Assembly (NCBI GenBank): GCA_027858715.1
Contig: JAQICD010000274.1
Coordinates: 1-53,726 of the forward strand
Reading direction: 5' to 3'
Length of the DNA: 53,726 bases
From: Prolixibacteraceae bacterium
Lineage (GTDB): Bacteria > Bacteroidota > Bacteroidia > Bacteroidales > Prolixibacteraceae
A program made the position numbers and the translations under genes. Below, one piece after another: positions 22,109 through 28,265 of this stretch (position 1 is its first letter; each line of letters starts with the position of its first letter). Below the pieces are notes generated by a model that saw only the letters and a list, made by a program, of their open reading frames with translations, was not told the origin of the DNA and did not search any database.

Positions 22109-22134
22109 TTAATCCCGACGTACGTCGGGATTAA
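22109..22134. repeat. 26-bp perfect palindrome in the rplL-rpoB intergenic region
   Basis: ttaatcccgacgtacgtcgggattaa equals its own reverse complement; core TCCCGACGTACGTCGGGA. Confidence 0.95.
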
Positions 22135-25196: not shown

Positions 25197-26384
25197 TTAT
25201 TCTATAATTTCAGTTACCTGACCGGCTCCAACTGTACGTCCACCTTCGCGGATTGCGAACTGAAGACCTACGTTAACAGCTACAGGGTAAATCAATTCTA
25301 CTGTGATAGTTACATTATCACCAGGCATTACCATTTCGCGTCCTTCGGGCAGGGTAATTTCACCTGTTACATCAAGGGTACGAATATAGAACTGAGGACG
25401 ATATTTGTTGTGGAATGGAGTATGACGTCCACCTTCTTCTTTTTTTAATACATAAACCTCAGCTTTAATCTTAGTGTGAGGAGTAATTGTACCTGGCTTA
25501 CACAAAATTTGACCACGTTTTATCTCTTTTTTGTCAACACCACGAAGCAACAAACCTACGTTGTCACCAGCTTGTCCATCATCAAGAATTTTACGGAACA
25601 TTTCAACACCAGTACAAACAGTTTTACGACCTTCAGCACCTAAACCAATAAGCTGTAAATTATCGCCAGTGTGAACAACACCAGTTTCGATACGTCCAGT
25701 AGCAACAGTTCCACGTCCTGTAATTGAGAATACGTCCTCAACAGGCATCAGGAATGGCTTATCAACATCACGTGGCGGCAGTGGTATCCAGCTGTCGCAG
25801 GCATCCATCAATTCCATTACTTTTTCCTCCCATTGTTCTTCGCCGTTCAATGCACCAAGTGCAGAACCTTGAATTACAGGAGCAGAATCACCTTCGAATT
25901 TGTAGAAATCGAGCAATTCACGCAATTCCATTTCAACGAGTTCAAGCAATTCAGGATCGTCAACCATATCGACTTTGTTCATGAAAACAACAATCTTAGG
26001 TACGTTTACCTGACGGGCTAACAGAATGTGCTCACGTGTTTGAGGCATGGGACCGTCGGTAGCAGCACAAACCAAAATTGCACCATCCATCTGAGCAGCA
26101 CCAGTTACCATGTTCTTTACATAGTCGGCGTGTCCAGGACAGTCAACGTGTGCATAGTGACGCGTCTCTGTTTGATACTCAACGTGTGCAGTGTTAATTG
26201 TAATACCCCGTTCTTTTTCTTCAGGAGCATTATCAATTGAATCAAACGCTTTAACTTCTGATAAACCTTTTTTTGCTAATACCGTTGTAATAGCAGCGGT
26301 AAGGGTGGTTTTACCATGGTCAACGTGGCCAATAGTACCAATGTTGACATGGTCTTTATCCCTATTAAATTTTTCTTTAGCCAT
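25197..26384 (-). CDS. tuf: Elongation factor Tu
   Basis: '[20 protein letters not shown]', '[25 protein letters not shown]', 'MNKVDMV'. Confidence 0.99.
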
Positions 26385-26459
26385 AACTTAAGATATTAGA
26401 TAACGTTAACTATTTTTATTATCTGATTTTTATTTTTCACTCTATAATATATAACAATG

Positions 26460-26531
26460 AGCCGATGACGAGAATTGAACTCGTGACCTCTTCCTTACCA
26501 AGGAAGCGCTCTACCCCTGAGCTACATCGGC
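26460..26531 (-). tRNA. tRNA-Thr (GGT)
   Basis: Minus strand gccgatgtagctcaggggtagagcgcttccttGGTaaggaagaggtcacgagttcaattctcgtcatcggct; full cloverleaf, anticodon loop ttGGTaa. Confidence 0.95.
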
Positions 26532-26536
26532 AAGGA

Positions 26537-26603
26537 GTGGGAAGAGCAGCCCCGACTACTATCGGAGAAACCTACGAAGGCTAAGCCTTCGTATTAATCC
26601 CTC
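26537..26603 (-). pseudogene. Partial tRNA-Tyr copy with the T-loop replaced by an imperfect palindrome
   Basis: gtgggaagagcag + ccccgactactatcggaga + aacctacgaaggct; the intact tRNA-Tyr has gtgggaagagcag + gattcg + aacctacgaaggct at 26604-26636. Confidence 0.75.
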
Positions 26604-26604
26604 G

Positions 26605-26686
26605 TGGGAAGAGCAGGATTCGAACCTACGAAGGCTGAGCCAACAGATTTACAGTCTGCCCCGTTTGACCGCTTCGGTATCTTCCC
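26605..26686 (-). tRNA. tRNA-Tyr (GTA)
   Basis: Minus strand gggaagataccgaagcggtcaaacggggcagactGTAaatctgttggctcagccttcgtaggttcgaatcctgctcttccca; class II tRNA with long variable arm. Confidence 0.96.
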
Positions 26687-26778
26687 TTTATAATATGTTT
26701 TAGAACTCACGAAGGCTGAGCCAACAGATTTATCCCGATGTACATCGGGACTCCGTTTGACCGCTTCGGTATCTTCCC
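26687..26778 (-). pseudogene. tRNA-Tyr-derived 92-bp repeat unit A with palindrome in the anticodon arm
   Basis: Keeps the tRNA-Tyr 5' acceptor strand, D-arm and variable arm; 'cagtctg' is replaced by tcccgatgtacatcggga; T-arm/acceptor 3' half lost. Confidence 0.85.
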
Positions 26779-26870
26779 TTTTAAATATGTTTTAGAACTT
26801 ACGAAGGCTGTGCCAACAGATTTATCCCGATGTACATCGGGACCCCGTTTGACCGCTTCGGTATCTTCCC
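26779..26870 (-). pseudogene. tRNA-Tyr-derived 92-bp repeat unit B with palindrome in the anticodon arm
   Basis: About 87 of 92 positions identical to unit A by hand comparison; same palindrome tcccgatgtacatcggga. Confidence 0.85.
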
Positions 26871-26941: not shown

Positions 26942-27065
26942 TGGAAATCATTGTAATAACAGGCTCAAAAAACAAACCCTTAACAGTTAACTTTGTTCCT
27001 GAAAAGGGTGTGCAAATGTATAAATCTTTTTAAATAATACACAAAAAATAGTCGTTTTTTATTTA

Positions 27066-27374
27066 TTATTTCTCTTTACGCTTTTCTTTGAATTTGGTCA
27101 ACTGCTTTTTCATAGCGTCAACTGCCAGTGTTGTTGCCTCTTCAAAAGTATCTGCATGTTTCTTTGTGAAAAGGTAATCCTTGGCCGGAATTGATAATTT
27201 TATTTCAACTTCTTTGTTGTTTGATGTTTCAGGCTTAACTACTTTTAGTATAACTTCAGCACTGATAATACCATCAAAGAAAGTATCAAGCTTATTTACT
27301 TTTTTATTCAAGAATTCAACCAGCTTTTGATCAGCTGTAAAATGCACATCATTGATTTTAAGGTTCATGTTCAT
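27066..27374 (-). CDS. raiA: Ribosome hibernation-promoting factor, RaiA/HPF family
   Basis: 102 aa; 'NLKINDVHFTADQKLVEFLNKKVNKLDTFF...VEIKLSIPAKDYLFTKKHADTFEEATTLAVDAMKKQLTKFKEK'. Confidence 0.9.
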   Translation of the reverse strand: MNMNLKINDVHFTADQKLVEFLNKKVNKLDTFFDGIISAEVILKVVKPETSNNKEVEIKLSIPAKDYLFTKKHADTFEEATTLAVDAMKKQLTKFKEKRKEK

Positions 27375-27383
27375 TCCTCCTTT

Positions 27384-28265
27384 TTAGCTCCTTGGATGAG
27401 CCTGATTATAAACTTTTTTCAATTGTTCGAATGTTGTATGTGTATAAATCTGAGTAGCGGACAAATTAGCATGTCCCAGAAGTTCTTTCACTGCATTTAA
27501 ATCGGCACCATTGTTCAACAAATGCGTTGCAAAACTGTGACGCAATACGTGTGGACTTTTTTTCCTAACAGTAGTTACCATAGATAAATGCATTTTAACG
27601 ACCCGATAGATTAGCTTATCGTAAACTTGTTCTCCCTTGGAAGTTAAGAAAAGATAATTACTATTTCCATCAATCTCTACCCTCTTTTCCAAATAATCGT
27701 TAAAAAAAACTTTTACTTCTTTAGGAAACGGTACTATCCGCTCTTTCTGACGCTTCCCCATCACCCTTACTGTAAAATTATTGATGTCAACACTTAACAT
27801 TGTTAAATTTTTCAATTCGGCCAACCTGACTCCTGCACCATAAAGTAGCGAAATCATAAGTTTATCACGACTCCCGGTAAAATCAGAAGGGAACAAACCT
27901 AAATCGAGCAATTGATTCAGATTTTCTTCACGAACGTAAGTAGGAAGCTTCTTTGCTACTTTCGGTGAATTTACGAGCTGAGCAGGGTTATGATCAATTA
28001 CATCTTCACGCATCAGATATTTGTAGAACGACTTGAGTGTTGAAATTTTACGTCCAACTGATCTGGCACTAATACCGTGATCCATCATCGACATAACCCA
28101 ACGCCTGATATCCTTTGACGATACATTTTTAATATCAAAATCCCCGACCGAATCATTCATAAACTGAACAAATTGATCGAGGTCATTTCTATATGCTACA
28201 TACGTATGCTTTGAACAGCGTTTTTCGTATTGCAGATATTTAATATAATCGTCAAGCAGAAGCAT
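27384..28265 (-). CDS. xerC: Tyrosine recombinase, XerC/XerD family
   Basis: 'LLYGAGVRLAELKNL', 'HVLRHSFATHLLNNGADLNAVKELLGHANLSATQIYTH'. Confidence 0.93.
   Translation of the reverse strand: MLLLDDYIKYLQYEKRCSKHTYVAYRNDLDQFVQFMNDSVGDFDIKNVSSKDIRRWVMSMMDHGISARSVGRKISTLKSFYKYLMREDVIDHNPAQLVNSPKVAKKLPTYVREENLNQLLDLGLFPSDFTGSRDKLMISLLYGAGVRLAELKNLTMLSVDINNFTVRVMGKRQKERIVPFPKEVKVFFNDYLEKRVEIDGNSNYLFLTSKGEQVYDKLIYRVVKMHLSMVTTVRKKSPHVLRHSFATHLLNNGADLNAVKELLGHANLSATQIYTHTTFEQLKKVYNQAHPRS

Follow-up and report, generated by a model that had tools for sequence, protein, structure and literature searches.

Two tandem partial copies of the tRNA-Tyr gene, each with part of its anticodon arm replaced by a perfect palindrome, lie within the window (the whole 53,726 nt stretch of Prolixibacteraceae DNA analysed here). 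An association of short GIY-YIG nucleases with palindrome-bearing partial tRNA copies is well supported, and the class so defined adjoins numerous tRNA genes in Bacteroidota and has also been seen, though sparsely, in other phyla. The window units very probably belong to this class. It is also reasonably probable that these units, together with a third tRNA-Tyr remnant close by, are gene-less members of an element class whose GIY-YIG nuclease breaks and partly duplicates tRNA genes. Whether the palindrome marks the site of nuclease cutting is close to evenly balanced, leaning slightly against. The data point to a little-noticed class of selfish element attacking tRNA genes.

With regard to genomic setting, the locus comprises hpf, for a ribosome hibernation factor of the Hpf/RaiA type (27066..27374; Pfam PF02482), an intact tRNA-Tyr (GTA) gene (26604..26686; ARAGORN, and Rfam RF00005 at 58.6 bits), tRNA-Thr (GGT) as the next gene downstream (26459..26531; ARAGORN) and tuf, encoding elongation factor Tu (25197..26384; Pfam PF00009/PF03144/PF03143), all of which are on the minus strand. 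Since tRNA-Tyr is read from this strand, the two units sit 5′ (upstream) of it, within the intergenic region from hpf to tuf, and the preliminary description, which had them after the tRNA, gave the direction the wrong way round. Lying between hpf and tRNA-Tyr, they would precede the tRNA in a tRNA-tuf transcript. A candidate promoter box read from the sequence, TACATTTG (27013..27020, minus strand), matches the Bacteroidetes −7 box TAnnTTTG and would place the start of transcription ahead of the units. The order tRNA-Tyr, tRNA-Thr and tuf is retained in another genome of the genus (L035), where neither unit type is present and the tRNA-Tyr sequence is the same as that of the window. A phage-integrase-family (XerC-like) gene at 27384-28265 of the window is apparently an ordinary neighbour, and no integrase carried by the elements themselves was noticed.

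The two units occupy 26687..26778 and 26779..26870 on the minus strand, are both 5′-type copies of 92 bp, and are identical to each other at 87 of 92 positions, as previously described. In transcript direction, each consists of the 5′ part of the tRNA, the palindrome, the remaining anticodon arm, the variable arm, a truncated T-arm and an AT-rich spacer. The first 27 bases agree with tRNA-Tyr at 26 positions in one unit and at all 27 in the other. Thereafter the 18-bp perfect palindrome TCCCGATGTACATCGGGA, located by palindrome search at 26733..26750 in unit 1 and at 26825..26842 in unit 2, replaces exactly 7 nt of the tRNA-Tyr anticodon arm, CAGACTG (minus strand), in both units, which confirms the swap first noticed there. 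The tRNA copy restarts at TAAATCTG and extends to the T-arm (31/36 identical), which ends after GTTC; beyond this the sequence is AT-rich, so that the reported decay on the T-arm side also holds. Neither unit offers the cloverleaf combination of anticodon, T-arm and paired acceptor stem, and intact tRNA-Tyr and tRNA-Thr are the sole calls made here by both ARAGORN and Rfam, in keeping with the view that the units are not normal tRNAs. Their predicted RNA folds beat those of shuffled sequences (z of −2.7 and −2.8). Each unit is a partial copy of the adjacent tRNA, on the same strand, with a palindrome anchored on both sides at Tyr 28^36, which is the anatomy of the class.

The third remnant is of the 3′ type and lies between tRNA-Tyr and tRNA-Thr (26537..26603, minus strand; recognised from a repeat of GTGGGAAGAGCAG, alignment and fold). 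Its acceptor 3′ strand is intact, and a hairpin at 26573-26593 replaces the variable arm. The imperfect palindrome CCCCGACTACTATCGGAG (26550..26567; sequence and fold) replaces the T-loop, the position of which is occupied by CTCCGATAGTAGTCGGGG.

Recurrence of the Tyr junction was assessed in 120 genomes of the family with a pattern that allowed any 9-38 nt between CAAACGGRG and TAAATCTGTTGGC. Six matches were found, in three of the 120 genomes and in three genera, and two of them are the units of the window. Each of the six inserts is a TCCCGA..TCGGGA-type palindrome at an identical junction, one having decayed through point changes, and the Tyr units are gene-less (i.e. without a nuclease) in all three genera. 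One genome (G016) has its units downstream of tRNA-Tyr; another (G423) has a single unit upstream, as in the window. At the latter locus (L208:1275-1395), a gene-less partial copy of the 5′ kind also accompanies the tRNA-Thr that neighbours tRNA-Tyr, and the palindromes of this copy are in its D-loop and anticodon arm.

A search of the window's genome for the unit palindrome, as the preliminary description had proposed, places it at 12 sites with no more than two mismatches. Two of these sites (C227:13084 and C145:7550) belong to partial copies of tRNA-Asn, in which the palindrome has the same tRNA positions as in the Tyr units; others are not in tRNA copies but in intergenic repeats and immediately downstream of rplL. 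The pattern CCCGA..TCGGG occurs 60 times in this genome, against 12 for the reversed pattern (about 5-fold), and the palindromes of the tRNA copies resemble this dispersed pool. One member within the window, TCCCGACGTACGTCGGGA (22113-22130), differs from the unit palindrome by two mismatches, is flanked by TTAA on either side and falls between rplL and a minus-strand frame of 1270 aa (putative rpoB, by position). At four further loci of this genome (L044, L045, L046 and L049) the palindrome is found within another dispersed repeat (..TTAGGCAATCCCGATGTACATCGGGAGAACTCGCAT..) that is not recognisably tRNA-derived.

Across 393 genomes of the order, a palindrome-bearing sequence followed by a T-arm motif was matched in 64, some matches being unrelated to tRNA. 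Many of them, often in tandem, adjoin an intact tRNA gene that they copy in part; the isotypes are Asn, Val, Thr, Lys, Ala, Gly, Met, Leu and Arg. Palindromes are thus placed in the D-, anticodon- or T-arm of partial tRNA copies in the same genome, in its family and in other families of the order. The original interpretation is accordingly upheld in part. Its suggestion of a tRNA-derived repeat family was apt, as the family is widespread, with palindromes in tRNA stem-loops, and its notion of a REP-like palindrome was correct as to dispersal; the connection to a GIY-YIG nuclease was not foreseen, and the many isotypes and the third remnant were missed.

At the gene-bearing loci, a short open frame ends at or inside the partial tRNA and encodes a GIY-YIG nuclease (PF01541, E-values of 5e-19 and 3e-17 for two proteins), mostly of 80-100 residues. 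The catalytic residues Y5, Y16, G18, R26, H30 and E62 are invariant in eight nuclease sequences. Pfam scans of two proteins returned no separate DNA-binding domain, with only a T5orf172 match, overlapping PF01541, in one of them. By sequence, the nearest solved structures are UPF0213 proteins (1zg2, 1ywl) and SLX1 chains, homing nucleases of the I-TevI type being less similar, and this likeness to SLX1 makes action on hairpin DNA conceivable. The usual order is intact tRNA, terminator, nuclease, 3′ partial tRNA copy with palindrome, and terminator. A mirror form also exists, in which a 5′ partial copy and the nuclease stand ahead of the intact tRNA; gene-bearing relatives of this 5′ type include L124 (the cultured Flagellimonas amoyensis, Leu type), L125, L126 and L133.

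Linkage to tRNA genes is almost entirely co-directional. Amongst 118 distinct short GIY-YIG proteins, a set that takes in Met-seeded loci, the nearest tRNA within 900 bp is on the same strand for 59 and on the opposite strand for one, with none for the remaining 58. On a tree of 106 nucleases, built from a short alignment and with many forks open, the isotype labels require 35 changes, as opposed to 52.4 when shuffled (0/200 as low). The neighbouring tRNA is seemingly the target of each nuclease. A scan of contigs identified records named as Prolixibacteraceae, Proteiniphilum, F. amoyensis, Ignavibacteria and Patescibacteria, plus single loci labelled Levyibacteriota and Chloroflexi; the query was a Met-type nuclease pair, and the named loci are therefore biased towards Met. 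Most of these loci consist of a tRNA with a palindrome-bearing copy, and in a few, such as L119 (Ignavibacteria, Met) and L137, no clear palindrome-bearing tRNA copy was seen. A phage origin was considered and set aside, as a tblastn search with one Val-type tRNA-linked protein gave no match among 50,697 phage records.

There is no GIY-YIG gene in the window, nor did the genome, which is 82 % complete, yield a nuclease specific for Tyr; the path from the window to the nuclease runs via tRNA-Asn. Elsewhere in the same genome, a partial tRNA-Asn copy continues straight on from a GIY-YIG gene (C227:12818-13006); the palindrome of this copy is one mismatch away from that of the Tyr units and has the same junction. 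The second tRNA-Asn copy, on C145, is accompanied by GIY-YIG remains. Within the family, one genome (G010) has two gene-less Asn units, with a palindrome identical to that of the Tyr units, that precede an intact tRNA-Asn and then a nuclease; the rod-like RNA fold of the Tyr units is not clearly common to these Asn units. In another (G013), a single locus combines intact tRNA-Asn, the nuclease and a copy that has palindromes in both its anticodon arm and its T-arm. In the same genus, the palindrome of the corresponding tRNA-Asn copy has decayed in G006, and in an Asn copy of G007 (L235) related palindromes stand in for the D-loop, the anticodon arm and the T-loop alike. The anticodon arm of the nuclease-linked tRNA-Asn is the family norm. 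For Tyr itself, a gene-bearing 5′-type element with T-loop hairpins is known from another organism (L125).

The tie between nuclease and hairpin holds at 34 tRNA-linked short GIY-YIG loci picked by PF01541 alone, blind to palindromes. A hairpin is anchored in copies of the locus's own tRNA at 28 of the 34, on both sides at 18, and a control with reversed tRNAs gave one-sided matches at six loci and two-sided matches at none. More broadly, 73 two-sided hairpins were recorded around 127 intact tRNAs (control 0), a number that falls to 39 once palindrome-selected loci and spurious matches are dropped (loci L055-L084 having been picked with the palindrome pattern). Every one of these 39 junctions is inside an arm (anticodon 24, T-arm 8, D-arm 7, elsewhere 0), the counts not being phylogenetically independent.

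Junction positions are typical of the isotype: 28^36 for Tyr, 28^46 in all 13 Val cases, mostly 37^48 for Met, the D-loop for Leu (taa, cag) and Arg, the T-arm for Asp, and several for Asn. These positions are common to families whose palindrome sequences differ. The hairpin sequence varies yet stays palindromic, and in the Met type both sides change in four of six pairs, with a covariation of 0.452 against 0.143 when shuffled, such that pairing is kept up despite sequence change. Among the matches listed, palindrome-bearing tRNA copies occur in 9/25 genomes with short GIY-YIG genes and in 0/45 without (p = 3e-5; p = 0.002 if ten hidden carriers are allowed for). Conversely, a GIY-YIG gene is nearby at 13 of 21 palindrome-selected tRNA loci and not at the other eight (about a third), some stretches of which end at contig ends.

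The reading that we favour begins with a gene-bearing form, in which an intact tRNA is joined on the same strand by a GIY-YIG gene of about 80-100 residues, usually just 3′ of the tRNA and sometimes just 5′, and by at least one palindrome-bearing partial copy. Cleavage, repair and the arrival of the palindrome are steps that we infer. The nuclease would break one particular arm of the tRNA gene, and tandem partial duplications would arise on repair, by analogy with SegB of phage T6; a copy would persist if one of the palindromes already dispersed in the genome had taken the place of its attacked arm. Such copies could neither be cut nor function as tRNA, and selection would maintain the single intact copy. 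In the window, the attack would have fallen on the anticodon arm of tRNA-Tyr, in its 5′ half, and in the third remnant on the T-loop, and the nuclease gene would since have gone. The interrupted arm is confined to the partial copies and the intact tRNA is unrecoded; taken with the lack of a separate DNA-binding domain in the proteins scanned, this speaks against simple homing, at least as judged from sequence. A recoded rescue (i.e. cleave-and-rescue) is likewise not supported, intact tRNA-Tyr being identical to that of the empty same-genus site and the anticodon arm of intact tRNA-Asn being the family norm. Also counting against the favoured reading are the failure to find a Tyr-specific nuclease in this genome, the gene-less state of the Tyr units in all three genera, and proteins with a catalytic domain alone that are closer to UPF0213 and SLX1 than to I-TevI.

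Alternatively, dispersed REP-like palindromes might enter any hairpin-forming spot as neutral scars, purged from functional tRNAs and kept in duplicates that the nuclease merely supplies. The occurrence of the palindrome in intergenic repeats and downstream of rplL, the 5-fold excess of CCCGA..TCGGG over its reversed control and the Asn copy with all three loops replaced would each fit; however, the isotype-typical positions common to families with different palindromes would not, and palindromes are carried by most nuclease-linked loci, above what neutral decay would lead one to expect, making this account unlikely. Hairpins could also be the very thing recognised, with an SLX1-like GIY-YIG nuclease acting on DNA hairpins of tRNA genes and palindromes, and the palindrome being a mobile unit swapped into arm loops. 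The closest solved relatives, UPF0213 and the structure-specific nuclease SLX1, the restriction of all 39 junctions to stem-loop arms and the identical palindromes in Tyr and Asn copies are consistent with such an exchange. We know of no mechanism that moves a 16-20-bp palindrome, though, and the isotype-typical position within the arm argues for sequence recognition as well, so that exchange of this kind appears distinctly improbable. A wider proposal, possible but doubtful, is that minimal SLX1-like GIY-YIG nucleases attack tRNA genes as hairpin-forming DNA and put mobile perfect palindromes in their arms. These would amount to a new mobile element that spreads partial tRNA arrays in Bacteroidota, and probably in Ignavibacteria and Patescibacteria, gene-less arrays, that of the window included, being its non-autonomous passengers.

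That the units are themselves functional RNAs, serving for example as decoys of tRNA or as signals for processing of the tRNA-tuf transcript, could be argued from their shared direction, their place between the promoter-like box and tRNA-Tyr, and folds better than those of shuffled sequences. The fold may nevertheless be explained by a perfect palindrome plus inherited tRNA pairing, neither the T-arm nor the acceptor 3′ strand is retained, and the units are missing at the same-genus site L035 and present in only 3/120 family genomes; such a role is highly improbable. Terminators or attenuators were also dismissed as the reason for the palindromes, the anchored junctions lying inside tRNA arms and not at transcript ends. 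Finally, an assembly artefact, which the preliminary description named as the finding that would overturn it, might be feared of tandem repeats in a draft assembly (279 contigs, 82 % complete). The units are, however, mid-contig, the same junction exists in two other genera, and palindrome-bearing tRNA copies are found in a single-contig genome (G328); artefact is rejected on these grounds, and the chance of it, or of fortuitous similarity, is negligible.

Amongst known systems, SegB of phages T4 and T6 is the closest. SegB and other free-standing GIY-YIG homing endonucleases are encoded outside introns, beside tRNA genes of many isotypes (PMC13096335, PMC2988022). SegB is implicated in breaks within tRNA-containing DNA, and in phage T6 the tandem amplification of tRNA-Tyr plus segB reportedly depends on it (PMC13096335). 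An intron-free GIY-YIG gene adjoining tRNA genes is common to both systems, but SegB is a phage nuclease, whereas the genes described here are chromosomal, bacterial and of about 80-100 residues; furthermore, the palindrome-replaced arms of partial tRNA copies are unmentioned for SegB in the excerpts of its description (PMC13096335). I-TevI and similar homing nucleases have an added DNA-binding domain, in contrast to the catalytic domain alone seen here. Free-standing phage GIY-YIG nucleases beside tRNA genes are therefore already known; no description of chromosomal tRNA-linked ones, or of arm-replacing palindromes, was found in the open-access literature, as judged mainly by titles and abstracts.

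Resemblances to other elements are more limited. UPF0213 and SLX1 GIY-YIG proteins are the nearest solved structures by sequence, and no tRNA-gene linkage is known to us for either. REPs occur between genes as repeats associated with an HUH transposase (RAYT), and share with the present elements the use of short, dispersed palindromes; here, however, the palindromes occupy typical sites inside tRNA copies and the linked gene is a GIY-YIG nuclease. Rickettsia palindromic elements likewise insert palindromic sequence within genes and RNA genes, but are longer and are not known to be tied to tRNA duplicates and a nuclease. Integrative elements that target tRNA genes (tyrosine recombinase att sites) also leave partial copies beside an intact tRNA, whilst the copies described here have palindromes in their arms.

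If the favoured reading is true, small nuclease elements target the tRNA genes of bacterial chromosomes in several phyla, and SegB-type tRNA amplification would extend from phages to bacterial chromosomes. The loci would also constitute a natural assay of how an essential gene is retained alongside a nuclease possibly able to cut it, and would explain where some dispersed Bacteroidota palindromes come from.

Pseudo-tRNAs with arm hairpins are open to mis-annotation. ARAGORN labels some palindrome-bearing tRNA copies as tRNA-???, tRNA-Phe(aaa) or tRNA-Pyl (L081, L157 and L207), and such labels in Bacteroidota annotations may be spurious. Intact tRNAs can also be found in long tandem arrays, as at L034 (G018:C1:130000-132500), where 15 are present in repeats of Thr, Tyr and Gly; the single PF01541 match of that genome is within a 608-residue frame (UvrC-sized). 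A separate branch of short GIY-YIG proteins (L087, L088, L098, L107 and L111) has no tRNA neighbours and is flanked by dispersed repeats and other palindromes, several of these repeats being of the TGTCATTTCGA/TGTCATTCCGA type, which suggests a second association between GIY-YIG genes and repeats.
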